Origin: Boswellia sacra
Taxonomy: Eukaryota > Streptophyta > Magnoliopsida > Sapindales > Burseraceae
Direction: 5' to 3'
Length of the DNA stretch: 64,000 nucleotides
Assembly (NCBI GenBank): GCA_013180625.2
Contig: SNVD02013083.1
Span: forward strand, 704,770-768,769
Part shown: positions 27,358 to 64,000 of the stretch, one piece after another
How the letters are laid out: the number at the start of each line of letters is the position of its first letter
Position numbering within the stretch: the stretch's first letter is position 1
Program-made: the position numbers and the translations under genes
The notes under the pieces: generated by a model
The model's database searches: none
Told to the model about the DNA's origin: nothing
Seen by the model: only the letters and a program-made list of their open reading frames with translations

Positions 27358-27404
27358 AAGTTCAATGACATACGAATGAAGAAAGATCATGTTGATTTAG
27401 AGGA

Positions 27405-28345: not shown

Positions 28346-28489
28346 CAACTACTTGGAGTGATGACTCAGAAACTGATTCAGAAGATCAAGAATGCATGAA
28401 TAATTTTGTAGCATTTACAGTATCTGCAACTAATAAAGAAAGCTATTATGTCCAGCACAATAAAAAAGTGCAGAACTAATGATGAACAT

Positions 28490-29025: not shown

Positions 29026-29059
29026 ATTTATTGCATAAAAGGTCAAAATAGTTCAATAT

Positions 29060-31400: not shown

Positions 31401-31659
31401 ATATCTTAATCAAAATATGCTAAAAAACTTGTAAAGAAATTTGGACTTGAGAATGCAAAACCAACGAAAACTCCTATTAATACTAACCTGAAACTCTCAA
31501 GAGATAATACAAAAAAATAGGTTGATGTCAGTTTATATGAAGCATCATTGGCAGTTTGTTATACCTCACAGCCAGTAGACCAGACTTGTATTTTAGTGTA
31601 GAACTTTGTGCAAGATTTCAAGTAAATCCCAAAGAATCACACCTTGCAACAGCTAAAAG

Positions 31660-33235: not shown

Positions 33236-33305
33236 GAATAAGCATTGTTTTCTGTTATGTTAATTATATCAACAACAATATGCAGAGATCCCGATTAATC
33301 CTACA

Positions 33306-35023: not shown

Positions 35024-35520
35024 TGTGCTTTCCATTTATTTTTAGAACTTTTTATGAAATCAAGGGGGAGAAGAAGTTTCTGATTATGTTCTGATATTTT
35101 TATTTGAACTGATTCTACTTGACTTCAAGGATAGTAAGTTAGGGCGAGTCTTATATTTGAATTCGAACTACTTTATGACTTGTGTTTTTTATTTGTTACT
35201 TTGCAGGTTTTCTTTATTGTGTTTTGAGCTCTTACCTGCATATTTAAATTGTTTGATGTTTTTCTCACATTTTTTTAGCTCTGATCATGCTTTGGTTGAG
35301 TGTTACTTGACATGTTTGTCAACTTTACTTAGTTTTGTTTTGCAGGATATTTACATTTAGACATTATTCTGTTATGAGATTTATAACTGCACAATTGTTA
35401 TTTATTTAAGTATGTCATTTTCTGTTTGATGGTTCATGATTGCTTATAGTCATTTTAGACTTATCTTTGTGTACTATTCTTTGATAAAAAATAGTTTGAT
35501 GTCTTCATCACAAGTTGTCA

Positions 35521-35533
35521 AAAAAGAAGAAAT
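35521..35533 (+). promoter_or_regulatory. Polypurine tract of the copia element
   Basis: The run aaaaagaagaaat lies immediately before the 3' LTR. A second purine run, aagggggagaagaag near 35062, lies 470 bases upstream; several such tracts are reported in Sireviruses. Assignment is by position. Confidence 0.6.
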
Positions 35534-35853
35534 TGTTGGTATCAACGTGTGACACTCTTGCATGTGCCATTCACATGATTATTTTCGACAACTTGTAGAT
35601 AAAAATAGTGTGTTATATTGTTTCTTATTTTACTATTTCTAGAAGTATGATTTATGAAGTACTTGATTCATGATGAAAATCTCTTTAGATTAGGACATTA
35701 TTTGATATATTCTAACTAAATTAGGAGTATACTTATTTGTGTCCTATTTCATTCGGTAGATTACTTATATCACTTCTCAAAGTATTATTCTTTATCCTAA
35801 TTTGAGTTTGATTAAGATTTTTACAAGATTTTGAAGAGATTACAATCGTGCAT

Positions 35854-35885
<32 letters not shown>

Positions 35886-36416
35886 ACGTTATTTTTGCAT
35901 AATATATACAGGTGATGTGTATGTCACGACATTCCAAGAGTCAGATGAGAGCTTCAATGCAAAAATAGGAAATGCTTCTTTGATTTTATTTTATGAGTGT
36001 TTTATTCATGTATGAGAGATTGTGATCGTGCATGAATTTCAATTAAGTGTGTCTGAGTTAGTGTACACTTGAGAAAACTTATGAGTTGAATGTTTATGTA
36101 ATTCAATGTTAGACATCGTGATTATGTTTTACTTAACAGTGTATTATTAAGTTGTTAGTGACAGAGAGTAGGCATTGTCACTAGAGTTTAAGATCTTGTT
36201 GGGATTTTATTTTACAAAAATTAGATCAGTGTGTGAAAGTGAGTCAGTACTGTAAACGATTCTAAAAATTGTACAAACAAGAAATTAGTGAATTGCAGCT
36301 CTAAAACTGTTCGTGGATGTAGGTTTTATAATTGAATCACGTAAAATTCTCATATGCCATTTTACTTTACAGTTTACTGTTATATTACACATAACTTCAT
36401 ACTTCCAGATCTTACA
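35534..36416 (+). repeat. 3' LTR of the copia element
   Basis: 883 bases, TG...CA. It matches the 5' LTR throughout, apart from a (CA)n run at 35853-35880 followed by about 45 bases not found in the 5' LTR. Confidence 0.92.
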
Positions 36417-36421
36417 ATAAC

Positions 36422-40739: not shown

Positions 40740-43700
40740 GAAAAATTGATAACAGTTTTTACTAAACCTCGAAGATGGTTAAAGCTGAGTTATTAGTTTA
40801 TTAATCGTTCGTTGTTGGTAATAAGTCATTTTTTAGTTGATTGGTGATATGCAGTTAAGAAGATGATAGTAAAAAAACAGAAGGGGAAGAATGAAGTTCA
40901 GAGAAAAATTCATCTCCATTTTTTTATACGTTCATTTATTGCATTACCAAAGAAGTCGGCAAGGGATGACAATACCTGTCTGGAATAGCAAACACCCAAC
41001 TCAGGTTAGGTAGTTTTCTTGCCATACTTTGCATGATCTCAGTCTCTATTTTTTTTTTTTTCTTCAATGAAGTATATTATTGTTCTTGAAACAGTTTCCA
41101 TGTTTCACTGTAACGGGGTTGATTGTCCCCTTTTTCATTATTATTTATATTTATTATTGTTGTTGTTGTTTTCATCTCAGATGAATTTGTAATGAGTCTT
41201 AAACATTGTGAAGATGGCTATATTCTTTCAATATTTTAAATATTATTTTCTCCTTCCCATATGCTTGGCTGTTTCTCTCTATTCAATTTACTATTAAAGA
41301 ATTGTGACATGTGATGAGGTGGATCCCAATAAGTGGGATGGTGGGTGAGGACTTGGTGATGGGTGTGGTGGAGAGTTGTTATGTATTCTGCCAATCTTTA
41401 ATAAGAAGATTAATTGTGGGGTGGGGAATATCTTGTCTAACCACAACTAGATGGTGATGTGGAACCTACTTTATTGATGATGGGGGAGGCTTTTAAGGTA
41501 TCATGTAACCAAGATATGATGCCATCCCACTCGTTCCTCTAGTTGTTGTTGTTGTTGTTCTGTCTTTATCGTAGTGGGGAATTCTTAAATGTTGATGTCA
41601 CATGTTGGCCATATTGCTGAGATATATAAGTAATGGGTTTTCTTTTTTTTTTAGTACACATAGTGGGTTTTTTTTTTTGGAAAGCTATAGTTCCTTATTA
41701 TCCTCCAAAATGATGAAAATTACTCTATGATGTGGTAAGTAGTATGATGGATGATATTAATTATTATAATACATGCTAAAAGATTCTATACGTTAAAAAA
41801 TTAATTTCGTTCGAAAACGTGAAATACCGGAATCCAAAAAAAAATTATTCAGTAAATTTTGAAAGGAAGAAAAATTTTATGAGACTTTAGAGATTCAATG
41901 TTTTGATAGAGAAAACCATTGAAAATATAATGATCTTGAAATTCAATTCATTAGGATTAAAAAAAAAAACTGTTGTTTTGAATTGTTGAAAAAAGAACTT
42001 TATACAAAGTGAAGAAGAATAGGATTTTTTTAATTTTTAATTTATTTATTTTTTATATATAGAATTTCAAAGATGATTCATTGAAATGCAGAATTTTACC
42101 TTATGGAGTTTATCAATTAGCAAGAAAAGGTGAATTGAAATTATTTGCTTTACAAGAAATCAATCGCTTGATTCTAAAAGATACCAACAAGAAGACAAAA
42201 TGATACTTAGTTGATATTATGTTAGCCCATATAATAAGTCATCTCATTCCAAGTTTGTATTCAAATGCTCAGTTAACAATTCTTTAGACTCAATTAATTA
42301 ATTAAATTAAAAGCCTATTGTCAAACCGACAGATGTTTCTTCAAGTCATTATCATACAAAGACATCTTTATTAATTTATATGTTGATATGTCATTCCGAG
42401 GAGATAAGTATCTTTACATATAATAAGTTTCTACAGAAAATCACCTTTAGATTTATTTTTCTTGGCCTTCCTAAGTTTATTTTTATCCATAAAATACTCT
42501 CTAAAAGTCCAGAATGAGGACTAGAAATTGGCTTGATTTTCACCTAGCTGAAAAATATGACAATTCAATCAATAAATTAACCAAATTAGAACTGACATGA
42601 TCTTCTAAGAAAATTATTCAATGAATAAAAAGAAAATAGAGATGAAAATGACTCAATAAATTATGTTGAAAGACTATTACTCCCAAATATTTAGGAGATA
42701 GATCAGGACCTCAAAATTGTATAAAAAATTTTAACACATGTTTGTTAAGTGTAAGTTATATTCAATCTAATAGTGATTAGACTCTTAATATTTCGAAACA
42801 AGATATCAACTTAAACTAAACTAAAAAATAAAAATCTAATAATAAGCTGTAATGAATAATTAATTTGCTAGAGTAATAAAACAAATTATTCCAATCAAGT
42901 TCTATGAGACAAAGCATCATAATCTCATTTTGATGAAGTGGGGATAGAGATAAAGAGAAAGCTTAGTAGAAATTGATAACATTTACCGGTGCAATAAGAT
43001 GTATCATTGAAAATGAGAATGATATGTTTGCTTAATATTAGCCTTATATCCTTACTTAATAACTTAATATTTTGAGTCAAATGATTACTTAACATATTAT
43101 AAAAATAAAGGTCCAAAATTTGAGGCTTATGTGTATGTATTATTTTTTGTGTGTATTTGAGTTGGGTTTGACTATAAATAAAAATTATAAAAGATATGAT
43201 CAGCAAAAAGAGGCATCAACAATGAACAAATTCCATAACTGTGTGAAAAAATATTCTTTCAATGGAAGATGTAATGCAGAATCCAAAGTCCAAGAAGACA
43301 AATGAAAAAAGGAAAAAAGAATCCGAAATCTTACAAAAGATATTCCATAGTCAGTTGCTGTACCGATTCAACTTGTCTGCAGATTGCGGTCCTTTCTTAC
43401 CAGCAGCAGCAAAGAGAATAGTAAAACATGATAATTAAGAAGCCAACCACAGCCCATTGGAAAGAAAGAGAAAAGAAATCTGAAGTAATGACAGTTTAGA
43501 ATCACAATGATGTTAGGATAAGAACAACTGACCAAGACTCCCATGCATGCAAATTTATTCCAAGATTGAGAATAACTAGTTGATGCTGGGAATGACTAAA
43601 AATCGAAAAGGCAGAATAAAATCAAACTATTTAACAACTGGCTCTAGATAAAAACAGCACTAGAACACACTTACCAGAATTGATGCCAAAAGTAAAAAAA

Positions 43701-44482
43701 AAAAAAAAAGTTCTAAATGACTCTTAGAACATTGAGAAGACCTTCCTTTGCTTTCTTTTTTTTTTTTTTTTCCTGTTTTTCTTTTAAATGAAAGACCAAG
43801 TCCTAAATGCCACCAGAATTGGTCCAGAACATTTTTCAATTCACATAGCTTAATTTGGATGTCAATCTGTCTAAACAAGGATAATGACAGTAAGCATAAC
43901 ACATATTTGGACTCCAAAAAATTTTCAGATCACTACAGCCCTGATTAATCTGTAAATACAGATAATCAGATGCAGCAAAAGATTTCTATAACATCACTAA
44001 GTGTCTATACCTGATTTCACATATTTAATAGAATTTGGAGATATTGTTGTTTTTAATACTATATGCACTACTAAAATCCTCACGAATATACAATATATCA
44101 CTACCAGTGTTCATATTGTTGCCACTTCTTCCTTGACATAGTCTACGTCCCTCCAACCTTGTATTGGCTTCAAAGTCTTCTAAGATTTTTTCCTTCAGCT
44201 GAAAGCAACCAACAAATATGAGAGAACAAGTATCAGGAAATTTTTTAACAGTGTTCATCAAGCCTCAGCAATCTTGCCTTCGATAAGCAGGGACCTGTAA
44301 TTAATTAATGAAATGGGAAAGAATTCTTCTCCCACTAATCCAAATAACATGTTAACTTAGTTAATAATAATTAACACTGAACCTTACAGTCTTAGAGATC
44401 GTGATTGTGGCCAAGTTCATGCTGCTCAACCAATTTCATAAATGAGCTTCTCAACATAGCTGAAAAAGTTCCTGACTTAAAC
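40740..44482. other. 3' UTR of the CCCH gene and long intergenic spacer
   Basis: The first 400-500 bases are probably 3' UTR (T-rich, with a GTT repeat near 41160). The rest, to the PPR stop at 44483, is AT-rich. It holds short frames of no recognisable content, and a GTT run near 41540. The part next to 44483 probably includes the 3' UTR of the PPR gene on the other strand. Confidence 0.4.
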
Positions 44483-47137
44483 CTAATCCTCTTCATCATG
44501 CAATGCCTGGCAAAAATCGGGCACATATCCGACTTCTTTGATGGAGGATAACAATGAACTCAAAATTTTGTATATCTTGTCAGAAAGAGGATGTGATCTA
44601 CTTCCAGCAGTAAAAGAGTGAATCTGATTTCTGACAACAATCATGCTAATCCCTGGAGGCTTTTTTAGACCCTTTCCCTGCAGCCATGTTCTTGTTTGTC
44701 TGACTTCTGACCAAAGACCAGCTGATGCATAAATATTAGATATTAAGACATAGTTCCCTGCATTCATTGGTTCTAATTCAACAAGTTTTTCAAAAATGTG
44801 TTTAGCTTCTGTAGTGTCAACATGAAGTCGGCTAGCACTAAGTAGAGCCCTCCACACCGTTGCATCTGGTTCAATAGGCATGGAGTTGATGAACTCTTTA
44901 GCTTCGTCTAAGCAGCCCCCACGACCAAGAAGGTCAACCACACAACCATAGTGAGCAAGCTCAGGGGTGATGTTAAAATCATGAATCATGGAATGAAAAA
45001 TCTGTAATCCTTCCTCTATTAAACCAGAATGACTGCAAGCAGATAGAAGGGATATGAATGTTACTCCGTTTGGCTGGAAACCGTCTTCCAACATTTGTAA
45101 GAAGGCAAGAATAGCATCATGTCCACGACCATGCATACCATAGCTAGTTATGATGGCATTCCATGAAATGATGTTTCTCCTTGGCAAGGTTATAAAAATC
45201 TTCTCAGCATTTTTCATACTGCCACATCTTGCATACATTGTTATGAAAGCATTTGCAAGAGACAAATTGAAACTCATATAGGACACCCTTCGTGTTACAT
45301 ACGCATGTAAGCATTGACCATGAGCCAGATTGGCAAGATGGGTACATGAGGAGAGAATATTTATGATCGTGACTGAGTTTGGCTCTACTTCAGAAATCAT
45401 TTGGTTAAAGAGTAACACAGCTTTGTTAGCATCATTATTTTTAATATAACTGGTAATTAAAGCGTTCCATGAGATCAAATCCCTATGTGGAAAGCCATCA
45501 AATAAATTCCTTGCAGTTGCTTCATCTCCACAATCCATATACATATCAGTAAGTGAAGTGTTTAATGACTGGTCTATTTCAATACCATGTTTTATTGCAA
45601 AACCATGTAACGATCTCCCAATATTAAGACTATTTTCACCTTTACAAGAAGCAAGGAGAGCTATCAGTGTGTGAGAGTTAGTTATGATTTCAGACTTTCG
45701 CATTGTTCCAAAGAATTTCCATGCTTCATCTATCAAATTGTTACGTGCCAGTGCCAGGATCAAAGTGTTATATGAGACAACATCTACGTCACTCATCTCA
45801 CTGAAAACATTCTTGACTGATTCACAATTTTGCTCAGCATACATACTTAGAAATGCATTTCCGATAGAAGCATCTAACTTCATCCCACTCTTGATTGCAA
45901 GAGCATGTAAGCTCTTACCTTCTTCGAAGCTATTGGCTAACTCTTCACATAGAGATAGAATAATAACAATGGTTCTTCCATCTTCTCTGATACCTTCTTT
46001 ACGCATTCTAACAAAGAAACTAATAGCTTCCTCATAATACCCATATTCAATGTATGTGGATATCATAGAATTCCACAAAGCAACATCATGGTTGGGTATG
46101 GCATCAAATAATCGACATGAAAACTCAAAATTTCCAATCTCTCTATACATATTAAGCAGCGCATTCACTAAGAACAAATCATTGATACACCTAAACTTAA
46201 CAGCCATTGCATGGATTTGCATGCCCAATTTAAGAGATCCAAATCCTGCACAAGCCTGAATAACAACCAATTTTGTAATGGAATCAAACTCAAAACCATC
46301 CATAACCATTCTTTCAAAAAGCTTCAAAGCTTTAAAGAACTCCCCATTGTCAAGATACCCGCTGATCATTGCATTCCAGCTCACAGCATTCTTAACAGCC
46401 ATAGAATCGAAAACAAGATGTGAAATTCCCAGATCAAGAGCCAAATAAAACCCAGTCAAAGCAGTTCCCACATGAGGATCAGATTCAAAAAGTCCATTCC
46501 TCAAACAAAAACCATGAATCTCCTTCCCTAACCTCAAATTTACTAACTCCTCACATGCCGAAAGCAACGCTACCACAGTGCGAGAATTAGGCCTCAAACC
46601 CTCCTCTTGCATCTTAATAACCAACAAAATCGCTTCCTCATAATACCCACACTCCACATACCCATTCATCATAGCGTTCCAAGCAACCAAATCTCTCTCA
46701 CGCATTCCATCAAACACATCAAGCGCATCTTCAAGAAACCCGCATTTGCTGTAAAAATCAACCAGAGCCGTCCCAACTCGAACATTTTCAATCAAATCCG
46801 TCCCCCGGATACGATCATGCAATCTCTTCCCTCTCTCCACAGCATTAAGCCGCATGCAAGCCTTAATTACTAGGGGCAAAATGGTGGAATCAGGTAGTAT
46901 GTTAAGAGATTCCGTTTGGGTATACGTAGAGAGAATTGCATGGTCATTTTTGAGGCTGATTTGTTGTTTAATAATTGAATTATAGGATCTTTTTGGGTCA
47001 TTTTTCACTTTATTTTGTTTAAAACCAATAAAGGGTTTTTGAAGACCTGAACTCAAAGCTAAAGCCATTCTCAAGAGTTTGTTAACATTTGGCGGGGCTA
47101 GGATTTGGGGCTTTTGATTTTCAGTTAAAGCTGTCAC
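44483..47137 (-). CDS. PLS-class pentatricopeptide repeat protein, E/E+ subgroup
   Basis: An intronless frame of 884 residues starts at ATG 47137 and stops at 44483. The N-terminus of about 60 residues is rich in Lys, Leu and Ser and could target mitochondria or chloroplasts. PPR motifs of P, L and S type cover about residues 90-760 (VAWNAMMNGYVECG, VSWNAMISGYLDNG, ISWNAIITSYGMHG), giving about seven PLS triplets. E and E+ motifs follow (YVLISNIYASAGLWSEV, PPGISMIVV, then GYVPDFCQALHDEED). It ends where a DYW domain would begin, so it has no deaminase of its own; such proteins edit organelle RNA by recruiting a DYW partner, or act in splicing or stability. No internal stop or shift is seen. 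Confidence 0.92.
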   Translation of the reverse strand: MTALTENQKPQILAPPNVNKLLRMALALSSGLQKPFIGFKQNKVKNDPKRSYNSIIKQQISLKNDHAILSTYTQTESLNILPDSTILPLVIKACMRLNAVERGKRLHDRIRGTDLIENVRVGTALVDFYSKCGFLEDALDVFDGMRERDLVAWNAMMNGYVECGYYEEAILLVIKMQEEGLRPNSRTVVALLSACEELVNLRLGKEIHGFCLRNGLFESDPHVGTALTGFYLALDLGISHLVFDSMAVKNAVSWNAMISGYLDNGEFFKALKLFERMVMDGFEFDSITKLVVIQACAGFGSLKLGMQIHAMAVKFRCINDLFLVNALLNMYREIGNFEFSCRLFDAIPNHDVALWNSMISTYIEYGYYEEAISFFVRMRKEGIREDGRTIVIILSLCEELANSFEEGKSLHALAIKSGMKLDASIGNAFLSMYAEQNCESVKNVFSEMSDVDVVSYNTLILALARNNLIDEAWKFFGTMRKSEIITNSHTLIALLASCKGENSLNIGRSLHGFAIKHGIEIDQSLNTSLTDMYMDCGDEATARNLFDGFPHRDLISWNALITSYIKNNDANKAVLLFNQMISEVEPNSVTIINILSSCTHLANLAHGQCLHAYVTRRVSYMSFNLSLANAFITMYARCGSMKNAEKIFITLPRRNIISWNAIITSYGMHGRGHDAILAFLQMLEDGFQPNGVTFISLLSACSHSGLIEEGLQIFHSMIHDFNITPELAHYGCVVDLLGRGGCLDEAKEFINSMPIEPDATVWRALLSASRLHVDTTEAKHIFEKLVELEPMNAGNYVLISNIYASAGLWSEVRQTRTWLQGKGLKKPPGISMIVVRNQIHSFTAGSRSHPLSDKIYKILSSLLSSIKEVGYVPDFCQALHDEED

Positions 47138-47918
47138 TTGGGCTGGGCTGGGCTGCTGGGCCGGGGTAGTCCATGTGCAAAAATCGAAATTTATTTTAGT
47201 CTAATTCAGCGCATTTACCAGTCTCGTCTTTTGGCAAAATTAGGGGTGCTTTCGACTTTCGAGTTCTTCGATTAAAAATTGAATGCAATTTTTATTTCTA
47301 AAACTACTATTTTAGGGCTAATTAGTGTCAAATTAGGGTAAATTACTACATTGGTCGAGTTGAGGGACTTTCTTGAACTTTAATATAGCCCTAATTTTTA
47401 TGATTGTTCAGCCAAATTCAACTTTAAAAAGACAAAAAATACTTTCCTAAATAAGGTGTGAGAAAGTACTACAAAATTTCATAGTCGAGTTAGTATCAGT
47501 TCAATGTCTGTAACGAATGTTATCTACTAATGCATCCAACAATTTATCTGAAAGTACATATTTGTTATAAAATGTTGAACTTGAATACGTTATTAAAAAA
47601 AAATGTTTACTAAAACTCATACATTTAGCTCTTGCTTATTTTCTTTATCTCCCTCCTGTACTCTCTTTCACTCACACCCATTTTGACTTGAGCGTTCTTA
47701 TGTTCACTTGTTCCACTATACACTTTCAACTTAATTCATTTCCAATGACTTATTTTTTTTGTCAACTTAAATACTAATTTATATATAATATACACAACAT
47801 TTTCTTATACTTTTGTTGAACTTCTGAAGAGACTAAACCAATAATTTTTTAATATAATATTTTTAAAGTAAAGAAAAAAAATCCTGACTAAGACATTTAT
47901 ATCACATTATCAGTGATT
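47138..47918. other. 5' flank of the E-type PPR gene, up to the palindrome
   Basis: Within 60 bases of the start the sequence is GC-rich (gggctgggctgggctgctgg near 47140), then it becomes AT-rich. No gene is recognised. The sequence matching the right window end begins at 47919, so the true left limit of the palindrome could lie further left. Confidence 0.45.
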
Positions 47919-48273
47919 TTGTAGACAAATGTAATGGCTTTTTCTTAGATCAGCCAGGTAGTTGCATGTGTTGATCGCATGTAAAGTTTGTCACATTTTT
48001 TCATGGAAAAGACATTAGAAATTGCAAGAATATAATTGCTACAATTTTCATTAGAGGCAAAAGTCCCATAGAACTTCATTCTTTTCCCCTTTACACGTAT
48101 ATGTGGTACTTTTTCCTATATTTTCTGTACACTACACAAAAGGAAGGGAAAAGGTAGGAAAATGCGTACATTGCCAAAATTAATGTTTCCATGAAAAGAA
48201 AATTGTGGAAAAAAATTGCATCTTCCGATAACCTGCAAAGCTAATAGCCGAAACCAACATGAAAAAATCCAGT

Positions 48274-51200
48274 TCAGCTCCTCAGAAATTCCCAAGGACC
48301 CGTTCCTGTCCCAATCCTGCAAAATATGATAGCAGAAACTGAGAATTTTTTTTTTTTTTATTCACATCATAATTTATCTGAAGAAAGTGATTCACAAAGT
48401 TAGAAATTCTTCAATTTTTTAAATTTTCAGCAATATAATTTCGATAATATCAAATGCAGTTAGATTCCTGTCTTCAAGATTCGTAGTGTAATGAGAGGTG
48501 TGTCCTGGCATAATGATATTTTGTATGCAAAAGCTTGAGGGAAGAATAATTGTGTGGTCTTGTAGTGGATAATGAGGGTTTAAACCTGCATTGATGACCA
48601 TAAAAAGAGTTCAAAAGAATTGGCAAGAATGAAAATTACCTCCAGAAGCCGGCAAAAGCTCGAAGACTCATATATATGGTCAGACCAATCCAAAGTCCAA
48701 CGAAGCCATTGATGGCGGAGAGACCTAAAAGACATAGGATGCTGACGATAGCCACTAGAACCTGGAGAAGGAAGAATACGAAGTTAAGACAATTTCATAC
48801 AAAACAAATCTTCCCAGGATTGGTAGGAATTATAGACTTACCATTGAGCATGCAGAGTAAGCAAAATCGGATGCTCCGAAGTTGACACCATCGAAGACGA
48901 ATGCCAGGGAATTGATGGGTTGAGTACCGGCAACAAACTGATACAAAGCAAGAGTAGCATTATTTCTGGTGTTTATTTTGGGTTCTAAGTGTATGATTGT
49001 ATTCTTTTTCTTGTTTAGAGATGAAAGGAGTACCGGAATTCCTATGCCAATGAGGTGGAGAACGTTGGCATCTGTTGTGAATAATCTGGCTCCATAATGC
49101 AGTCCTAATCCAAGTACAGCCGTAAGGACCAACCCCAATACTAGTCCCAACTGCAGGTGACCACATGAAAGGTCAGCTAACAAAATTATATCAAGCCAGA
49201 GGCCATTTGATCCTTCTGAACAAAAATATATAAAGCACCTGCAGTACTCGAGATGCGGTTGCTGTTGCCTTCTCATGGTCCTTCTTGGCAAATGAACTTG
49301 CAAGTATTGCCTGAGAGCATGAAAGTAATCTCAATTTAGCATAAAAACGAACAAATTCCAAGAAAATGAACCAGAAACAATGAAATGATACTATATCTGG
49401 ACAATGTGAACCAATTATGACAACCTATGACACCTATTAGGCCTTTAAAAGAGGATTACAGAAATTCAGCTAACAGTGCTTTAGGATACTCATTTTGGGT
49501 TTGACAAGGTGCCTATTATTTCTCAATCTACTAGTTTGGAAGGAGGGAAATAATTAACTAGCACTATTACTCAGAAGCAAACGAAATCCTGACCAGATAA
49601 TCTCAGATCATGTTATCATAATATTACAGCTGACAGACAAAGATATGAAGTCTGATCAACTTTGGGGGTGGAAAAGGTGATTCTGGTCTCTCTAATATAG
49701 ATGAACATACTACAAGAACTAGAAAGAAGGCAAACCTTGTGTAGTTTTTCATATCAAATGCAAGGAAATTTCATAATGATAAATTTTCAGTTTTCAGCAT
49801 GCTAATGCCAATACATCACTTTTTCAGACGCTTTGACAGGATGATGGTGCAAAATGCTATGCAGATTGTAGAAGTTAGAAAGGAATGGATCAGCGCTAAC
49901 CTGACCAGCAACAGCCAAACCATCAGCCAGAAGAGATGTTGCCAGCCAAACCTGCAAGCAGACCTGAAATGCAGCCATGGGAGTTGGTCCTTGTCTTGCA
50001 GCCAGTGATGCAGACAGGGTGACACAGAATGTGACAGCCATTACCCGAATTAGTAATAGGAAACCTGGAGAAAACAAAAGGAAAAAAAAATGGACTTGTG
50101 AAAAACTGAACTGGACTTGTGAAAAACTGAACTTAAAAAACAAATAAATATCAGTTGGCAGTGGCATCTTTTTAATCATGACAATACATAAGTCCCCATC
50201 CAATTCAAGCAAGCTCCTTTTTAAATTTTGGTTCTTATCTGTGATAATAAGATGCTTTACCAGCCAAGAAAACTAAAAATTTCTATAGCTATCACTTCAT
50301 CTATCAATATGGTATGCATAGAGTTCTTAAGGTTACATAGATTGTATAAGCATCTTTGTTGATACAAATTTTAAAAGTTCTCTAGACGCTGAGAGACAAA
50401 AGACATCTAAATACATAAGAGAAGAAATTTCAGATTGCAAATTACTAAAAGAAAGTAAGGGATGAGAATTTTTTGAAAGTAAAATTGTGAACATACCGTT
50501 CTTAAGAAATCGACCAAATTGGAGATGTTTGATAGAAGGAGGTATAAGGTCAACTTGCTCAATTAATTTCCACAACAGAATAATTGCAATCAGGTACCTG
50601 TAATGGCCACACAGATTATGAAGTAAGACAAATGTGGTAAACATAGCATCATAGAAAAAAAATGGTACTTCTAGATTTTAATAGCAATCAAATATAACTC
50701 ACTGAGATACAACATGGGCAATTGCTGCACCACTGACTCCCAAGCGGAAAACAAAAATAAATATAGGGTCTAAGATTATGTTTGTTACATCTCCTGCCAC
50801 TGCATCAGTTCACATAAGAAGACACATTAGAATGATGTCAAATAGACAACTCTATAAAGTGATAGAGCTTCTCTGGATCTATAAAAGAGAAAGCAAAGTA
50901 TTCAAATCCAATAAGGCATACCAGTGGCAACTAAAGGGGTTTTTGTATCCTTGAATCCCCGGAAGACCCCTTGCATTGCCAAGGATAAAAGAACAGCAGG
51001 GGCACCAAGTGACCTTAATGTCAAGTATTGCTGTGCAGGGTTTAGCATAGGGGAATCCTGTAGAAACAAAAATGTCAAGCAGTTTTAGTCAGCATTAGCA
51101 ACAACTTGAAGAGCCTCTTCTTGTCCTAAAATTTACTTACAGAATGGATTCCCATGAAGTCCAACAGAGGTTTTGCCCCTGCTATAAGGACAAAGGCTTG

Positions 51201-52856
51201 GATGAGGCCGAGGATGCTGCCAATAACCAAAGCTGACGAAGCTGATGGGATATGCCTCTTTTTACGTTCAGGTTTTGCTATATCAAAGGTGCTGCTATTA
51301 AGTGCAACCCCACGGGTATCTGATAGAATGGAAATGAAAGGGGGCAAAATATGTAAAGAGGTTAATCTTTATAAGGTTTGTGAAAAAAATAAAAAGATAA
51401 GTAAAAATAGTTGATATGGAAACTTAGAAGAAATCGCTACTACCCTATCTTTTTATAGAAAAAACACAAAGGAAAAGCAATTAGAAAATTAAAAAAAAAA
51501 ATTATATTAATACATACCACTTTTGGGTAATAGCTCTTTATCTTCACCATCAGCTGGTTCTAAGTATTCACTTTCTTGTCCTTCTGGTTTTTCTCTATTA
51601 ACAGTATCTTCCTCAGCAACAAAAGAGGTGGTTATACTGACAAGTGGGAATATTGCAATTCTTGATACTTGATTAAATAGAGCAATAGCAACTCCTACAG
51701 CAGCAAGTTCTACTGGACCTGTACCAATTGAGATAAAATAAGTGAGTTTTTTAAAGAAAAAATAGTGAATTAGCCATAACTTCTAAAGGATATGCTAGCT
51801 AATCAGTGAAGTAAGTTTAAAGGTTAATAGTGAATCTGAAAGCAAACAGACCGCATTTTCAACTCCGAATTACAATTGATTCATAAACTTTATGGCTTAA
51901 TATAATAGCTACCAAACCACATGCCGATGACATGAGAACCAGCCTATCAATAGAACTTTTACAAACATCACCATCAACTTAAACTTGAGTAATTATTACT
52001 AATTTGGTATAGCTATCAAGCGAATTAGCATCAAACTATCATGTGCTGATAAAATTCTGAGCCGGATAATGAAGAAAAAAGGTGCAATGACGAAATTCCA
52101 GAATGAACAGAGATAAGGAGATACCAATTTGGCCTATAAAAGCTGTATCAACTAAAGAAGCAATTGGATCCGCTGTCAAAGCCATTGATGCAGGCAGTGC
52201 AATCTGTGCTATTTCTAGTCCAAGTTCATCCAACTTCAAAGCATGTCTGCGCATATAATTGAAAAAACCAACCATTAGCTCCTATAACTTCTTTGACAGA
52301 AAAGAATGTTTAGTAACAACTACTAAAATCATTCCACCATGGTTCTCCGAAGCAGACTTAGATTAACAACAAATAAGTAAACTAGAGTACAAGCACGGAA
52401 GGTGAGAACAAATCCGGAGAGTGAACCAAATTATCGTACGATATTTATTAACGATATTCATCCCCACACTGTACCCACTAAATCCTATTAAACATTCACT
52501 GTCACTTAAAGCAAAGATGGTTCATTTCTTTGCACATATAATTTTTAAGAAACTTCGATAACTTTAAAAAAAAAAAAAAAAAAAAAAACTTAACCACTTT
52601 CATTTTTCAGTTACAATTCATTTGTCACTTGAAAACTGCTAGGCCGCAAACACAATGACTAAGACAAAACTTTAAAGCTGAAACAACGATGTCCATCAGC
52701 CAGCTTTTGTTACCTGAGAAGTAATGATTACATCAAATTCATCACCACATAGCAAATGAAAAATCTTGAATGATACCTGGCATCCTTGAAGAAAACGCAA
52801 ATTGGGGGTCTCTTCTTATTCGCGGACTGGATTTGATTATACTCTCCGGTCATCAT
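48274..52856 (-). CDS. DTX42: DTX42-like MATE citrate transporter, left copy
   Basis: Thirteen minus-strand exons: 52777-52856, 52125-52246, 51518-51718, 51141-51319, 50922-51057, 50703-50799, 50497-50597, 49901-50064, 49239-49310, 49034-49150, 48842-48937, 48640-48761, 48274-48316. They join in frame (1530 bases, 509 residues) with GT-AG introns. The protein follows Arabidopsis DTX42/AtMATE and FRD3: PICVFFKDARHALK start, LTADPIASLVDTAFIGQI, a long hydrophilic loop of about 70 residues between the second and third membrane segments, GVFRGFKDTKTPL, GDVTNIILDPIF, AFVFDGVNFGASDF, and the end GTGTGPWEFLRS. Citrate MATEs export citrate across the plasma membrane for aluminium tolerance or iron transport. 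Every exon has the same length as in the right copy. Intron 7 carries a 21-bp tandem duplication. Start: the first of two adjacent Met codons. Confidence 0.93.
50091..50132. repeat. 21-bp tandem duplication in intron 7 of the left MATE copy
   Basis: The unit tggacttgtgaaaaactgaac occurs twice in a row. The right arm has it once (near 61805-61828), which accounts for the 20-base change in arm alignment. Confidence 0.9.
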
Positions 52857-55800
52857 TGTGAAAGGCCCCAAATATATAACTCACAAGTTGTCAAAACAAG
52901 TAGAATCAATTAGGCTACCGGTGCCACAAGGTACCTGTAAATTGTCACAAACTGAGCTCCTTATCATCTAATAAACATAATTTCCTTGAAAATGAAGAGT
53001 GCTTAGGAATGCTAATTCAGATACTAACTTCGACGCGTTTTCATATTCTTCAACAAAAAACTTGTGAATTCAAAGTTTGAGAGAAAATAAGTACATATAC
53101 TTTGACTGAAAGTCCCAGGAAATTTCCTGCAGAAAATAATGGTTTTCAAATTATAGACTCCCAGTTTTGTAAGCTGTCAAAACTGAATACCAAACCCAAA
53201 ACAAGAATGCGAACTCATTTAAGGGGAAAAGACATGCACCTGATTTCAACTCTCCAAGAAAGCCAGAAAACTTATTGAGACGAAAATTAGAAATTTTAAG
53301 TTTTGAAACTTCAACAATCCATCAAAACAGGGAACCACCTAATTCAAATGACAAGGAGGAAAATCAATTGTTACCCACCTCCACAATTTAACTCAGCAAA
53401 AAAAATTCTAATCTCTCAAGCATGCAAGACCGTGACAACGTCAAAACCAGACCCACCTAATTCTAACCCCACAAGAAAAACAAAGTGGTCTTTTCACTAT
53501 CACTGAAACAATTAAAAAGCAAAATCAGAGAGGAATTTTGGAACATGTCAAATTCGAAGCAACAGTTTTTTTGAGCTTGTGGGTTGCATGATTGTGTGAG
53601 TGTACATGCGTGATGTGTTTAACTTCCATTTCAAGAGGCGTTTCTTGGCCACAAGGGTGGCATGACAAAAGCAATATCAAGTATCAACATCATCATGGTG
53701 GGCCTTTCAAATATGAATCCCCGAAGCAAATTTGTCCTCTTGCTTATTGAACTGACATAAAAAAGGAAACTACATGTGTCTGCATCAGATTCCAGAAAAC
53801 GCCACCATTTGCATAAGAATCTTCGAAAGTCTCATTTTGCATGCATATGATTGGCTGCCAGGTGTCCCACCCCATGCAGAAATTTCAATGGCTATTAAAC
53901 ATCACCATTAATAATTCACCGAACCATATTGAAACACAAGAAGAATCAAGAACCAAATATATCGTTAATGGTGGTGAAACTATTAGAGAAAAGATAAGTT
54001 AAAAACCTAAAACTCATCTTAGTAACCCCGTTTGCAAAAAAAAAAAAAAAAAAAAAAATCAGATGAACTCATGCAAACCAGGATGACACAGAAGAAACAA
54101 GAACCAAATATCGTTAATGGTGATGAAAATATCCGGGGAAAAAGGTTAAAATTTGTTTTTGGCTTTAAAAAAATAAAATAAAATGAACTTTACAACTCAT
54201 CTCAGAAACCCCAATTGCATAAAATTCAGAAACTAAAGCAACCATTTATAAAACAAGAACCAAATACCATTAATGGTGCTGAAGATATTAGAAAAAGGAT
54301 AAAGATAAAAACTTTCTTTTGTCTATAACTCATCTCAGGAACCCCATCTACATAAAAATTCAGATAAAGACAAGGAAAGATTAAGCAAAGCAAACCAACC
54401 ACGAATTATTTTGATATATGAAAGTGTGAGAAGGGATTATAAGCTGCATTCCATGAAGCTAGCAGGAGGGGACGGTTTTCATGGAATGAAGCTCTTGGAA
54501 GTTGGAATGAGATGAGAAGGGCAAGCACTCTCTATATGAGAATGCCTTGGAATGGTGGTTGTGAATGGTTTTATCACAAATGGAGTGGGGATGTAAAGGT
54601 GCATTTGCAGAGATAGAAAGGTCAATCCCATACAAGAGTCAGAGGCTGAGAATCAACTTGACTATTCTTAGCATCATCTTTGTCCCCATAATTTACTCTC
54701 CTTTGTCCATCAAATTCTCTTTCTATCTCTTCTATTTATGGTTTTTAGTCAAATTTTTTGCAGCCCAGAGAAAGCTTTTCATTAAATTTGGTTCAGGAAA
54801 ACGTTTATCAAATTCATTATCAACCTCCCATTGTAACTTGTAACATCCTTTCTTCATGTTTCATCAAATTTACAATAGAAAGTATTGACTTCTATTTATT
54901 TTTATAGGGTAAATCTTTTTATACTCCCTTAAGTTTCATTGAATGACTTTCTCTCCTAAGATTTAAGAATTTTACCAAAAAAAAAAAACCATGAATTTTT
55001 CTTTTTCTCTTTGACTTCAAATTTAAGGGTAAAATGATAATTTTATCGCATGTATAGTGAAAGGAAGGAAATAAATTTAATTTTATGAGATCTTAGGGGT
55101 GAAATTTTTATTGGTGAAACCTTGGGGAAGGTAAGGATGTTTATCTTTTTTAATCTAAAATTATGAAAATTATTAGAAACCTTTGCTATTATCATTATGG
55201 CCAACTCTTTAAAGTTTCTTAAATTTATCACAAATTATATCAATAGGAAAGCTATTTATTATTTATTTTTCGAATGTTGTATAACTCATGAGGAAAAATG
55301 AAAATTTTTATTCCCTTTTTAGCATGGAAACCTTAAATCTATATTTAGAGCAAAAACTAAACTAAAAACTCCATTAAAGAAATGTATTATTATACAAATT
55401 TTAAAGGTTTTAAGAAATCGCTATTTAATTATTCTCTTATATTGGGTGAATTACTATTCCAATTTAATATTATTAGATACTATTAAATGAGAACCCCTTA
55501 ATTTGAAGGTAAATTATAAATATTCATTCAATATTTTTTATTTATGGTCTTAGTTCAAAGGAACCTCTAGGTTGTTAGGGCTAGGTCAAAAGTGAAAACT
55601 TTATATTAAATATTGTTAATCCAATATAATAGTACTCTTGCATATATTCTAAAGTTTAAGTACTTGAAATTTATAAATCATGCAATGAATAACATTATAT
55701 AATACATATTATACATATGATTCATATCCATATATCCTTTCTCAAGCACATGTGGGTTTGAGTTGATAGTCAATTAACAAAGAAAAAGGTAATCATAATT

Positions 55801-55946
55801 GAATAAAAATTGAACATAGTGGAGCATTGATTCTTAAGATCTATAAAAGGTATGTTAACATATGAACAATTTTTTATTTTTTCAAAAAGGTGGGGCTAAA
55901 ATATTTTATCTTAATTTAAAATTTAAAATCTACTTTACACACCCAT

Positions 55947-55954
<8 letters not shown>
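52857..55954. other. 5' region of the left MATE copy up to the palindrome core
   Basis: Probably the 5' UTR with one or more leader introns (a splice acceptor tttacag lies about 79 bases before the start codon), then promoter. A possible core promoter with tatagaga (minus strand) lies near 54530, next to ggaatgaagctcttggaa. The outer part, about 54905-55954, is AT-rich and includes a ggtaaat...tactcccttaagtt stretch that looks like an old small transposon end. No other gene is seen. Confidence 0.45.

Positions 55955-55980
<26 letters not shown>
55955..55980. repeat. (AT)13 core of the palindrome
   Basis: Twenty-six bases of alternating A and T separate the arms. The first paired bases on each side are ...ccatttaatatt and aatattaaatgg.... 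The core is itself palindromic, so there is effectively no spacer. Confidence 0.9.
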
Positions 55981-55988
<8 letters not shown>

Positions 55989-58900
55989 ATGGGTGTGTAA
56001 AGTAGATTTTAAATTTTAAATTAAGATAAAATATTTTAGCCCCACCTTTTTGAAAAAATAAAAAATTGTTCATATGTTAACATACCTTTTATAGATCTTA
56101 AGAATCAATGCTCCACTATGTTCAATTTTTATTCAATTATGATTACCTTTTTCTTTGTTAATTGACTATCAACTCAAACCCACATGTGCTTGAGAAAGGA
56201 TATATGGATATGAATCATATGTATAATATGTATTATATAATGTTATTCATTGCATGATTTATAAATTTCAAGTACTTAAACTTTAGAATATATGCAAGAG
56301 TACTATTATATTGGATTAACAATATTTAATATAAAGTTTTCACTTTTGACCTAGCCCTAACAACCTAGAGGTTCCTTTGAACTAAGACCATAAATAAAAA
56401 ATATTGAATGAATATTTATAATTTACCTTCAAATTAAGGGGTTCTCATTTAATAGTATCTAATAATATTAAATTGGAATAGTAATTCACCCAATATAAGA
56501 GAATAATTAAATAGCGATTTCTTAAAACCTTTAAAATTTGTATAATAATACATTTCTTTAATGGAGTTTTTAGTTTAGTTTTTGCTCTAAATATAGATTT
56601 AAGGTTTCCATGCTAAAAAGGGAATAAAAATTTTCATTTTTCCTCATGAGTTATACAACATTCGAAAAATAAATAATAAATAGCTTTCCTATTGATATAA
56701 TTTGTGATAAATTTAAGAAACTTTAAAGAGTTGGCCATAATGATAATAGCAAAGGTTTCTAATAATTTTCATAATTTTAGATTAAAAAAGATAAATATCC
56801 TTACCTTCCCCAAGGTTTCACGAATAAAAATTTCACCCCTAAGATCTCATAAAATTAAATTTATTTCCTCCCTTTCACTATACATACGATAAAATTATCA
56901 TTTTACCCTTAAATTTGAAGTCAAAGGGAAAAAGAAAAATTCATGGTTTTTTTTTTTTTTGGTTATAATTCTTAAATCTTAGGAGAGAAAGTCATTCAAT
57001 GAAACTTAAGGGAGTAAAAAAGCATTTACCCTATAAAAATAAATAGAAGTCAATACTTTCTATTGTAAATTTGATGAAACATGAAGAAAGGATGTTACAA
57101 GTTACAATGGGAGGTTGATAATGAATTTGATAAACGTTTTCCTGAACCAAATTTAATGAAAAGCTTTCTCTGGGCTGCAAAAAATTTGACTAAAAACCAT
57201 AAATAGAAGAGATAGAAAGAGAATTTGATGGACAAAGGAGAGTAAATTATGGGGACAAAGATGATGCTAAGAATAGTCAAGTTGATTCTCAGCCTCTGAC
57301 TCTTGTATGGGATTGACCTTTCTATCTCTGCAAATGCACCTTTACATCCCCACTCCATTTGTGATAAAACCATTCACAACCACCATTCCAAGGCATTCTC
57401 ATATAGAGAGTGCTTGCCCTTCTCATCTCATTCCAACTTCCAAGAGCTTCATTCCATGAAAACCGTCCCCTCCTGCTAGCTTCATGGAATGCAGCTTATA
57501 ATCCCTTCTCACACTTTCATATATCAAAATAATTCGTGGTTGGTTTGCTTTGCTTAATCTTTGCTTGTCTTTATCTGAATTTTTATGTAGATGGGGTTCC
57601 TGAGATGAGTTATAGACAAAAGAAAGTTTTTATCTTTATCCTTTTTCTAATATCTTCAGCACCATTAATGGTATTTGGTTCTTGTTTTATAAATGGTTGC
57701 TTTAGTTTCTGAATTTTATGCAATTGGGGTTTCTGCGATGAGTTTTAAAGTTCATTTTATTTTATTTTTTTAAAGCCAAAAACAAATTTTAACCTTTTTC
57801 CCCGGATATTTTCATCACCATTAACGATATTTGGTTCTTGTTTCTTCTGTGTCATCCTGGTTTGCATGAGTTCATCTGATTTTTTTTTTTTTTTTTTTTT
57901 TTGCAAACGGGGTTACTAAGATGAGTTTTAGGTTTTTAACTTATCTTTTCTCTAATAGTTTCACCACCATTAACGATATATTTGGTTCTTGATTCTTCTT
58001 GTGTTTCAATATGGTTCGGTGAATTATTAATGGTGATGTTTAATAGCCATTGAAATTTCTGCATGGGGTGGGACACCTGGCAGCCAATCATATGCATGCA
58101 AAATGAGACTTTCGAAGATTCTTATGCAAATGGTGGCGTTTTCTGGAATCTGATGCAGACACATGTAGTTTCCTTTTTTATGTCAGTTCAATAAGCAAGA
58201 GGACAAATTTGCTTCGGGGATTCATATTTGAAAGGCCCACCATGATGATGTTGATACTTGATATTGCTTTTGTCATGCCACCCTTGTGGCCAAGAAACGC
58301 CTCTTGAAATGGAAGTTAAACACATCACGCATGTACACTCACACAATCATGCAACCCACAAGCTCAAAAAAACTGTTGCTTCGAATTTGACATGTTCCAA
58401 AATTCCTCTCTGATTTTGCTTTTTAATTGTTTCAGTGATAGTGAAAAGACCACTTTGTTTTTCTTGTGGGGTTAGAATTAGGTGGGTCTGGTTTTGACGT
58501 TGTCACGGTCTTGCATGCTTGAGAGATTAGAATTTTTTTTGCTGAGTTAAATTGTGGAGGTGGGTAACAATTGATTTTCCTCCTTGTCATTTGAATTAGG
58601 TGGTTCCCTGTTTTGATGGATTGTTGAAGTTTCAAAACTTAAAATTTCTAATTTTCGTCTCAATAAGTTTTCTGGCTTTCTTGGAGAGTTGAAATCAGGT
58701 GCATGTCTTTTCCCCTTAAATGAGTTCGCATTCTTGTTTTGGGTTTGGTATTCAGTTTTGACAGCTTACAAAACTGGGAGTCTATAATTTGAAAACCATT
58801 ATTTTCTGCAGGAAATTTCCTGGGACTTTCAGTCAAAGTATATGTACTTATTTTCTCTCAAACTTTGAATTCACAAGTTTTTTGTTGAAGAATATGAAAA

Positions 58901-59081
58901 CGCGTCGAAGTTAGTATCTGAATTAGCATTCCTAAGCACTCTTCATTTTCAAGGAAATTATGTTTATTAGATGATAAGGAGCTCAGTTTGTGACAATTTA
59001 CAGGTACCTTGTGGCACCGGTAGCCTAATTGATTCTACTTGTTTTGACAACTTGTGAGTTATATATTTGGGGCCTTTCACA
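55981..59081. other. 5' region of the right MATE copy
   Basis: Mirror image of 52857-55954. A likely leader-intron acceptor is tttacag|gtacc at 59002/59003. A T run at 59349-59372 and another at 57881-57902 have A-run partners in the other arm. Matching short frames (57095-57373 with 54565-54843, and 58432-58635 with 53303-53506) show no known domain. Confidence 0.45.
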
Positions 59082-62000
59082 ATGATGACCGGAGAGTATA
59101 ATCAAATCCAGTCCGCGAATAAGAAGAGACCCCCAATTTGCGTTTTCTTCAAGGATGCCAGGTATCATTCAAGATTTTTCATTTGCTATGTGGTGATGAA
59201 TTTGATGTAATCATTACTTCTCAGGTAACAAAAGCTGGCTGATGGACATCGTTGTTTCAGCTTTAAAGTTTTGTCTTAGTCATTGTGTTTGCGGCCTAGC
59301 AGTTTTCAAGTGACAAATGAATTGTAACTGAAAAATGAAAGTGGTTAAGTTTTTTTTTTTTTTTTTTTTTTTAAAGTTATCGAAGTTTCTTAAAAATTAT
59401 ATGTGCAAAGAAATGAACCATCTTTGCTTTAAGTGACAGTGAATGTTTAATAGGATTTAGTGGGTACAGTGTGGGGATGAATATCGTTAATAAATATCGT
59501 ACGATAATTTGGTTCACTCTCCGGATTTGTTCTCACCTTCCGTGCTTGTACTCTAGTTTACTTATTTGTTGTTAATCTAAGTCTGCTTCGGAGAACCATG
59601 GTGGAATGATTTTAGTAGTTGTTACTAAACATTCTTTTCTGTCAAAGAAGTTATAGGAGCTAATGGTTGGTTTTTTCAATTATATGCGCAGACATGCTTT
59701 GAAGTTGGATGAACTTGGACTAGAAATAGCACAGATTGCACTGCCTGCATCAATGGCTTTGACAGCGGATCCAATTGCTTCTTTAGTTGATACAGCTTTT
59801 ATAGGCCAAATTGGTATCTCCTTATCTCTGTTCATTCTGGAATTTCGTCATTGCACCTTTTTTCTTCATTATCCGGCTCAGAATTTTATCAGCACATGAT
59901 AGTTTGATGCTAATTCGCTTGATAGCTATACCAAATTAGTAATAATTACTCAAGTTTAAGTTGATGGTGATGTTTGTAAAAGTTCTATTGATAGGCTGGT
60001 TCTCATGTCATCGGCATGTGGTTTGGTAGCTATTATATTAAGCCATAAAGTTTATGAATCAATTGTAATTCGGAGTTGAAAATGCGGTCTGTTTGCTTTC
60101 AGATTCACTATTAACCTTTAAACTTACTTCACTGATTAGCTAGCATATCCTTTAGAAGTTATGGCTAATTCACTATTTTTTCTTTAAAAAACTCACTTAT
60201 TTTATCTCAATTGGTACAGGTCCAGTAGAACTTGCTGCTGTAGGAGTTGCTATTGCTCTATTTAATCAAGTATCAAGAATTGCAATATTCCCACTTGTCA
60301 GTATAACCACCTCTTTTGTTGCTGAGGAAGATACTGTTAATAGAGAAAAACCAGAAGGACAAGAAAGTGAATACTTAGAACCAGCTGATGGTGAAGATAA
60401 AGAGCTATTACCCAAAAGTGGTATGTATTAATATAATTTTTTTTTTTAATTTTCTAATTGCTTTTCCTTTGTGTTTTTTCTATAAAAAGATAGGGTAGTA
60501 GCGATTTCTTCTAAGTTTCCATATCAACTATTTTTACTTATCTTTTTATTTTTTTCACAAACCTTATAAAGATTAACCTCTTTACATATTTTGCCCCCTT
60601 TCATTTCCATTCTATCAGATACCCGTGGGGTTGCACTTAATAGCAGCACCTTTGATATAGCAAAACCTGAACGTAAAAAGAGGCATATCCCATCAGCTTC
60701 GTCAGCTTTGGTTATTGGCAGCATCCTCGGCCTCATCCAAGCCTTTGTCCTTATAGCAGGGGCAAAACCTCTGTTGGACTTCATGGGAATCCATTCTGTA
60801 AGTAAATTTTAGGACAAGAAGAGGCTCTTCAAGTTGTTGCTAATGCTGACTAAAACTGCTTGACATTTTTGTTTCTACAGGATTCCCCTATGCTAAACCC
60901 TGCACAGCAATACTTGACATTAAGGTCACTTGGTGCCCCTGCTGTTCTTTTATCCTTGGCAATGCAAGGGGTCTTCCGGGGATTCAAGGATACAAAAACC
61001 CCTTTAGTTGCCACTGGTATGCCTTATTGGATTTGAATACTTTGCTTTCTCTTTTATAGATCCAGAGAAGCTCTATCACTTTATAGAGTTGTCTATTTGA
61101 CATCATTCTAATGTGTCTTCTTACGTGAACTGATGCAGTGGCAGGAGATGTAACAAACATAATCTTAGACCCTATATTTATTTTTGTTTTCCGCTTGGGA
61201 GTCAGTGGTGCAGCAATTGCCCATGTTGTATCTCAGTGAGTTATATTTGATTGCTATTAAAATCTAGAAGTACCATTTTTTTTCTATGATGCTATGTTTA
61301 CCACATTTGTCTTACTTCATAATCTGTGTGGCCATTACAGGTACCTGATTGCAATTATTCTGTTGTGGAAATTAATTGAGCAAGTTGACCTTATACCTCC
61401 TTCTATCAAACATCTCCAATTTGGTCGATTTCTTAAGAACGGTATGTTCACAATTTTACTTTCAAAAAATTCTCATCCCTTACTTTCTTTTAGTAATTTG
61501 CAATCTGAAATTTCTTCTCTTATGTATTTAGATGTCTTTTGTCTCTCAGTGTCTAAAGAACTTTTAAAATTTGTATCAAAAAAGATGCTTATACAATCTA
61601 TGTAACCTTAAGAACTCTATGCATACCATATTGATAGATGAAGTGATAGCTATAGAAATTTTTAGTTTTCTTGGCTGGTAAAGCATCTTATTATCACAGA
61701 TGAGAACCAAAATTTAAAAAGGAGCTTGCTTGAATTGGATGGGGACTTATGTATTGTCATGATTAAAAAGATGCCACTGCCAACTGATATGTATTTGTTT
61801 TTTAAGTTCAGTTTTTCACAAGTCCATTTTTTTTTTCCTTTTGTTTTCTCCAGGTTTCCTATTACTAATTCGGGTAATGGCTGTCACATTCTGTGTCACC
61901 CTGTCTGCATCATTGGCTGCAAGACAAGGACCAACTCCCATGGCTGCATTTCAGGTCTGCTTGCAGGTTTGGCTGGCAACATCTCTTCTGGCTGATGGTT

Positions 62001-63645
62001 TGGCTGTTGCTGGTCAGGTTAGCGCTGATCCATTCCTTTCTAACTTCTACAATCTGCATAGCATTTTGCACCATCATCCTGTCAAAGCGTCTGAAAAAGT
62101 GATGTATTGGCATTAGCATGCTGAAAACTGAAAATTTATCATTATGAAATTTCCTTGCATTTGATATGAAAAACTACACAAGGTTTGCCTTCTTTCTAGT
62201 TCTTGTAGTATGTTCATCTATATTAGAGAGACCAGAATCACCTTTTCCACCCCCAAAGTTGATCGGACTTCATATCTTTGTCTGTCAGCTGTAATATTAT
62301 GATAACATGATCTGAGATTATCTGGTCAGGATTTCGTTTGCTTCTGAGTAATAGTGCTAGTTAATTATTTCCCTCCTTCCAAACTAGTAGATTGAGAAAT
62401 AATAGGCACCTTGTCAAACCCAAAATGAGTATCCTAAAGCACTGTTAGCTGAATTTCTGTAATCCTCTTTTAAAGGCCTAATAGGTGTCATAGGTTGTCA
62501 TAATTGGTTCACATTGTCCAGATATAGTATCATTTCATTGTTTCTGGTTCATTTTCTTGGAATTTGTTCGTTTTTATGCTAAATTGAGATTACTTTCATG
62601 CTCTCAGGCAATACTTGCAAGTTCATTTGCCAAGAAGGACCATGAGAAGGCAACAGCAACCGCATCTCGAGTACTGCAGGTGCTTTATATATTTTTGTTC
62701 AGAAGGATCAAATGGCCTCTGGCTTGATATAATTTTGTTAGCTGACCTTTCATGTGGTCACCTGCAGTTGGGACTAGTATTGGGGTTGGTCCTTACGGCT
62801 GTACTTGGATTAGGACTGCATTATGGAGCCAGATTATTCACAACAGATGCCAACGTTCTCCACCTCATTGGCATAGGAATTCCGGTACTCCTTTCATCTC
62901 TAAACAAGAAAAAGAATACAATCATACACTTAGAACCCAAAATAAACACCAGAAATAATGCTACTCTTGCTTTGTATCAGTTTGTTGCCGGTACTCAACC
63001 CATCAATTCCCTGGCATTCGTCTTCGATGGTGTCAACTTCGGAGCATCCGATTTTGCTTACTCTGCATGCTCAATGGTAAGTCTATAATTCCTACCAATC
63101 CTGGGAAGATTTGTTTTGTATGAAATTGTCTTAACTTCGTATTCTTCCTTCTCCAGGTTCTAGTGGCTATCGTCAGCATCCTATGTCTTTTAGGTCTCTC
63201 CGCCATCAATGGCTTCGTTGGACTTTGGATTGGTCTGACCATATATATGAGTCTTCGAGCTTTTGCCGGCTTCTGGAGGTAATTTTCATTCTTGCCAATT
63301 CTTTTGCAACTCTTTTTATGGTCATCAATGCAGGTTTAAACCCTCATTATCCACTACAAGACCACACAATTATTCTTCCCTCAAGCTTTTGCATACAAAA
63401 TATCATTATGCCCGGACACACCTTTCATTACACTATGAATCTTGAAGACAGGAATCTAACTGCATTTGATATTATCGAAATTATATTGCCGAAAATTTAA
63501 AAAATTGAAGAATTTCTAACTCTGTGAATCACTTTCTTCAGATAAATTATGATGTGAATAAAAAAAAAAAAAATTCTCAGTTTCTGCTATCATATTTTGC
63601 AGGATTGGGACAGGAACGGGTCCTTGGGAATTTCTGAGGAGCTGA
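59082..63645 (+). CDS. DTX42: DTX42-like MATE citrate transporter, right copy
   Basis: Thirteen plus-strand exons: 59082-59161, 59692-59813, 60220-60420, 60619-60797, 60881-61016, 61139-61235, 61341-61441, 61854-62017, 62608-62679, 62768-62884, 62981-63076, 63157-63278 and 63603-63645. The sum is 1530 bases, 509 residues, stop TGA at 63643-63645; Arabidopsis DTX42 has about 515. Junctions are all GT-AG and in phase. Membrane segments alternate with loops in the twelve-helix MATE pattern, and the long second loop (about residues 100-170, rich in Glu, Lys and Ser) is typical of the citrate-exporting branch. The coding sequence appears the same as in the left copy wherever I compared. The gene is intact and transcribed away from its twin. 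Confidence 0.93.
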
Positions 63646-64000
63646 AGTGGATTTTTTCATGTTGGTTTCGGCTATTAGCTTTGCAGGTTATCGGAAGATG
63701 CAACTTGTTTCCACAATTTTCTTTTCATGGAAACATTAATTTTGGCAATGTACGCATTTTCCTACCTTTTCCCTTCCTTATGTGTAGTGTACAGAAAATA
63801 TAGGAAAAAGTACCACATATACGTGTAAAGGGAAAAAGAATGAAGTTCTATGGGACTTTTGCCTCTAATGAAAATTGTAGCAATTATATTCTTCCAATTT
63901 CTAATGTCTTTTCCATGAAAAAATGTGACAAACTTTACATGCGATCAACACATGCAACTACCTGGCTGATCTAAGAAAAAGCCATTACATTTGTCTACAA
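63646..64000 (+). other. 3' UTR and flank of the right MATE copy
   Basis: Mirror of 47919-48273. Immediately after the stop, one base differs between copies (ctgaagtgg here, ctgaactgg in the left copy). No further gene is seen before the window ends. Confidence 0.6.

Follow-up and report, generated by a model that had tools for sequence, protein, structure and literature searches.

The end of a 64,000-nucleotide stretch of the Boswellia sacra genome assembly (hereafter, the window) is a near-perfect palindrome, each arm of which carries a whole MATE gene. Does the plant have this gene twice, head to head, or did the second copy arise when the contig was put together? The initial annotation had left both answers standing. 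From the analysis described below, we put the probability at about 0.94 that the palindrome is an assembly artefact, in which an AT-rich hairpin at the end of contig C6407 became the junction between two alleles of one MATE locus in head-to-head orientation. Put more broadly, the palindrome is almost certainly not a real feature.

Structure of the palindrome and its axis

The window corresponds to C6407:704770-768769 in an assembly of 638,608,913 bases and 7,431 contigs. It is AT-rich (34% GC), and its genes are plant genes, as judged by their relatives. Self-BLAST matched positions 47919-64000, the final 16,082 bases of the window, to their own reverse complement with 99.3% identity over 16,106 columns. 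Together with an arm-to-arm alignment, this bore out the earlier description of a reverse-complement palindrome with arms of about 8 kb. The left arm (47919-55967, forward strand) is continuous on its outer side with a PPR gene. The right arm (55968-64000, reverse strand) is an inverted copy of the locus and stops exactly where C6407 stops. Over approximately 8.03 kb, the two arms differ by 33 substitutions (17 transitions and 16 transversions) and three indels (1, 20, and 3 nt).

The axis lies between positions 55967 and 55968, inside a self-complementary alternating AT run of 28 bp (55954-55981) that is one of only two such runs of at least 10 bp in the window. From the axis outward, the two sides match perfectly over 828 bp, and as a single strand, the axis and its flanks fold as one long hairpin. 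The 26-base core that had been described between the arms is present, but not as a spacer: it is itself self-complementary, and thus there is no spacer at the axis. A direct transition from one arm into the other is what a fold-back or haplotype-join artefact would leave.

MATE genes in the two arms

Both arms contain a complete MATE gene, as the initial annotation had proposed. The left copy (48274-52856, reverse strand) has 13 exons and encodes 509 amino acids; this rests on the gene model, Pfam MatE domains, homologs, and the match to the HvAACT1 structure (PDB chain 9l7l). All of its internal splice junctions are GT/AG. The right copy (59082-63645, forward strand) has the same 13 exons in its gene model and encodes an identical protein, the sole coding difference between the two copies being a silent change in a leucine codon.

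Relatives of the encoded protein are named DETOXIFICATION 42 or MATE. Among the best 120 of 2,935 matches, full-length alignments had roughly 70-81% identity, with 81% being the highest value; Pistacia, Craigia, Reevesia, and Tripterygium were among the top matches listed in the protein searches. The nearest solved structure was HvAACT1 (chain 9l7l, 630 bits). Because it has MatE domains and resembles DETOXIFICATION 42 proteins along its entire length, the protein can be placed by similarity in the DTX42/AACT1 clade of MATE proteins. The label of citrate exporter is carried over from these relatives, and the protein is best described as a putative transporter.

The palindrome at the contig end

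C6407 has 768,769 bases, so that position 64000 of the window is the last base of the contig. Position 47919 pairs with position 64000 because the sequence stops there. C6407 thus breaks off within the palindrome: nothing flanks the right arm on its outer side, and unique sequence lies outside the left arm only. The initial annotation had named this, a unique outer flank on one arm alone, together with halved read depth over the arms as a finding that would speak against a real palindrome. A real inverted duplication would be expected to have unique flanks on both sides, and an artefact to reach the contig end. On the other hand, an assembler may likewise break off in a real palindrome, and thus the contig end is not decisive by itself.

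We searched 11 other contig ends for palindromes of this kind (8.6 kb each, from seven contigs: seven starts and four right ends). None had a terminal palindrome, which suggests that such joins are not usual in this assembly, as far as it was sampled. The test detects the C6407 palindrome in the last 8.6 kb of that contig, and could miss palindromes with arms above about 8.5 kb. Two of the 11 control ends contained a short, self-complementary element (about 75%, over 425 and 186 columns), which was interior and not terminal in both cases.

The same locus on a second contig

A 1-kb query at the axis had three near-identical places in the whole assembly: the two arms and the end of another contig, C6438. 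Window positions 43660-55970 (forward strand) are present there on the reverse strand, from 752171 down to 739876. Aligned as C6438:752171-739861 (reversed) against window 43660-55985, the two contigs are 98.6% identical; over the arm, C6438 is 99.7% identical to the right arm (55950-64000), a span different from that of the former value. Position 55970, which is 3 bp beyond the axis, is the last at which C6438 follows the window, and C6438 extends for another 739,875 bp from there. In the 39.9 kb that follow in this direction (C6438:700001-739875), the only matches to the window were a 190-bp local copy of axis-side sequence and a diverged LTR match. The same assembly thus contains the locus with an ordinary continuation at the fold point, as would be expected if the continuation in C6407 were an artefact.

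At the axis, C6438 has a perfect AT palindrome of 16 bp. Its predicted fold has a z-score of -2.4, with two of 200 shuffled sequences folding as well, so that the natural self-complementarity of C6438 at this place is only modest.

In C6438:739544-740000 and the adjoining sequence, just past the axis, there is a second direct copy (approximately 190 bp, 89% identical) of what lies to the left of the AT run. The two copies are about 335 bp apart and represent a local tandem duplication.

Outside the arms, the outer neighbor of the left MATE copy is a PPR gene with E/E+ motifs (44483-47200, reverse strand), the open frame of which is also intact in C6438. The window and C6438 versions of this gene differ by 39 substitutions (1.4%; 13 silent and 26 replacement). 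Two intergenic pieces of the left flank differ from C6438 by 2.1% and 4.7%. Haplotypes of an outcrossing plant may diverge this much; formally, C6438 could also be a close paralog instead of the other haplotype. Relatives of the PPR gene and of DETOXIFICATION 42 have neighboring locus tags in Rhamnella, Jatropha, Ulmus, Nyssa, and Diplodiscus. Based on this adjacency in five other plants, we infer that the left arm represents the native, ancestral setting of the locus.

Differences between the arms

The differences between the arms avoid coding sequence. Just one of 36 events is coding, compared to 6.8 expected under a uniform spread (P = 0.005), and restricting the test to divergent block 48025-50814 gives the same P-value (0.005). 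This pattern is that of natural variants filtered by selection, not of read errors, and the arm differences look like real alleles. An excess of CpG transitions among them was not significant (five of 17 transitions, P = 0.11).

We then compared the left arm, the right arm, and C6438 at the 46 events that fall inside the arms; five further C6438 events past the axis were dropped from this count. The left arm was the odd one in 31 events, the right arm in three, and C6438 in 12, and no site had three states. The imbalance between private events of the left and right arms (31 vs. three) has a two-sided P of about 8e-7 on the assumption that sites are independent, which linked sites violate. Seen from the other side, 31 of the 34 events that distinguish the left arm from the right are matched by C6438 base for base. 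Substitution counts over 47919-55960 were 33 for left and right, 39 for left and C6438, and 12 for right and C6438. The right arm thus groups with C6438, rather than the arms being each other's closest relatives as a real duplication would have it. Since the right arm has mostly C6438 variants, the differences between the arms are allelic. Together with the depletion of coding differences, this sharing of alleles with C6438 ruled out sequencing error as their source.

The right arm and C6438 are not the same sequence, however. They differ at 15 events, and the two arms share a state against C6438 at 12 of the 46, so that the match of one arm to the contig of the other haplotype is not exclusive. 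Haplotype switching in the consensus, errors at the tip of C6438, or a third allele would do as an explanation of this mismatch.

No difference between the arms falls within a block of 3,378 bp (50815-54192). Across the same block, only one base distinguishes the left arm from C6438, which points to low diversity at the locus and not to conversion between the arms. Identity tracts specific to the arms, as expected in a palindrome that undergoes gene conversion, were not found, the tract being common to C6438. Gene conversion was accordingly ruled out as the cause of the identical 3.4-kb block.

Other elements in the window and in related contigs

Several elements outside the palindrome were also recorded. 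A second PPR gene (7380-9728) has an E motif and a DYW deaminase domain in an open frame of 782 amino acids. An old LTR element of the Copia type occupies 26498-36418; its LTRs are 85% identical, it retains a gag fragment above the Pfam cut-off, and its integrase match is weak. A set of nested inverted repeats was found at 1650-4325, with an outer pair of 223 bp that is 100% identical and inner pairs that are 89-91% identical. This element is perhaps a fold-back-like transposon that was recently active. Positions 10363-12208 contain two inverted copies of a MITE-like element of approximately 0.4 kb, each about 75% self-complementary, and an element similar in size and self-complementarity was found near the start of contig C6437 (positions 1390-1796 of the stretch compared). 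Finally, contigs C6406 and C6438 resemble each other near their starts, with 92-97% identity (stretches 1-5970 and 2002-6765), which would represent either a repeat or a second haplotype that was retained.

Discussion

The most probable reading, a head-to-head join of two alleles, was one of the possibilities raised by the initial annotation, and it is supported by the continuation of C6438 at the axis and by the mostly C6438-type alleles of the right arm. Such a join most likely began with a read, or a DNA molecule, of the second type of allele that doubled back inside the (AT)n run. The first half of the folded molecule would have been assembled onto the left-arm allele, with which it is >99% identical, and the second half, about 8 kb or roughly one half-read, would have stayed as a contig tip in reverse orientation. 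Alternatively, an in-silico strand switch at a self-complementary AT word in the assembly graph could have had the same outcome.

The main rival is a real inverted duplication on one haplotype, generated by fold-back replication at the AT hairpin; C6438 would then be the haplotype without it, and the assembler would have stopped in the second arm. Some of the observations are in its favor: the AT run at the axis can form a hairpin, as expected from the fold-back inversions described in yeast (PMC7467729), the arm differences look like true variants, such palindromes were absent from all 11 other contig ends tested, and the right arm sides with the left against C6438 at about a quarter of the events (12 of 46). 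It predicts, however, that the two arms are closest to each other, with similar numbers of private events and with C6438 as the outlier, whereas the left arm has 31 private events, the right has three, and the right arm goes with C6438. The missing outer flank of the right arm, the different continuation of C6438, and the fact that the identical block is common to C6438 argue in the same direction. We therefore consider a real duplication very unlikely, and the earlier proposal that a citrate transporter was doubled by a very recent inverted duplication did not hold up. A variant of this scenario, in which exchange between homologs at the AT hairpin produced a real spacer-less palindrome of at least 16 kb, so that one chromosome has both MATE alleles head to head and the other has one, is very unlikely as well.

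Two further explanations can practically be dismissed. In one, a read of a left-arm molecule simply folded back, and the arm differences are sequencing errors. This would account for a palindrome that is contig-terminal and spacer-less, but it leaves unexplained why 31 of 34 left-right events recur in a separate contig and why the differences avoid exons. Plain fold-back of a left-arm molecule, which had also been suggested, was thus not supported because the arms differ at allelic sites. The other explanation is just as improbable: an old palindrome in which gene conversion between the arms has preserved their similarity, as on the sex chromosomes of plants or mammals. Blocks of identity (828 and 3,378 bp) do alternate with divergent blocks along the arms, but the same block pattern is seen between the left arm and C6438, a separate contig. 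The palindrome also has neither a spacer nor an outer flank on the right, unlike willow palindrome W.P1 as it is described in PMC7023750.

The preferred reading, a join of two alleles, has a practical consequence. If the contig end were annotated unchanged, a doubled MATE gene would be recorded that the plant very likely does not have, and genes of this type have, in relatives, been connected with the export of citrate and with tolerance of aluminium. It also offers a test for which no reads are needed: where a contig ends in a palindrome and the variants in the second arm are those of another contig, a haplotype join is the most likely origin.

Comparison with known systems

By sequence, the Boswellia protein appears to be an ordinary member of the DETOXIFICATION 42/HvAACT1 group of MATE transporters. 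For the palindrome, comparisons can be made with both artefacts and biological structures. Fold-back artefact reads, as characterized in PMC12870357, are likewise self-inversions, some of them without anything between the halves. Their share among genomic ONT reads is put there at approximately 0.55-0.6%, and they are described as able to entangle assembly graphs; ONT may not apply here, and three PacBio samples in that study are described as being without systemic fold-backs. Unlike in such reads, the arms in Boswellia carry different alleles, with the fold attached to the other haplotype, and the structure is known here from the assembly alone.

In yeast, the hairpins behind fold-back inversions are described as having stems down to 4 bp and loops of a few nucleotides, with median loop lengths of 5 to 35.5 nt, and the products as being stabilized by secondary rearrangements (PMC7467729). 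As loops can be only a few nucleotides long, the missing spacer is compatible with a biological origin and is not decisive. The human inverted duplications reported in PMC3907307 share with the Boswellia palindrome the head-to-head arrangement of inverted copies that is explained by a strand folding back. According to that report, a single-copy spacer, at least 766 bp long, is retained at all 21 sequenced junctions, whereas the Boswellia palindrome has none. The closest plant counterparts are the palindromes W.P1 and W.P2 on the W chromosome of the willow Salix purpurea (PMC7023750), which also have inverted, gene-carrying arms, with >99% identity in W.P1. The arms of W.P1 are given as about 20 kb, separated by a central spacer of 2.6 kb (text) or 3,586 bp (table), and its read depth is stated to fit the number of arms; by comparison, the Boswellia palindrome is spacer-less and known from assembled sequence.
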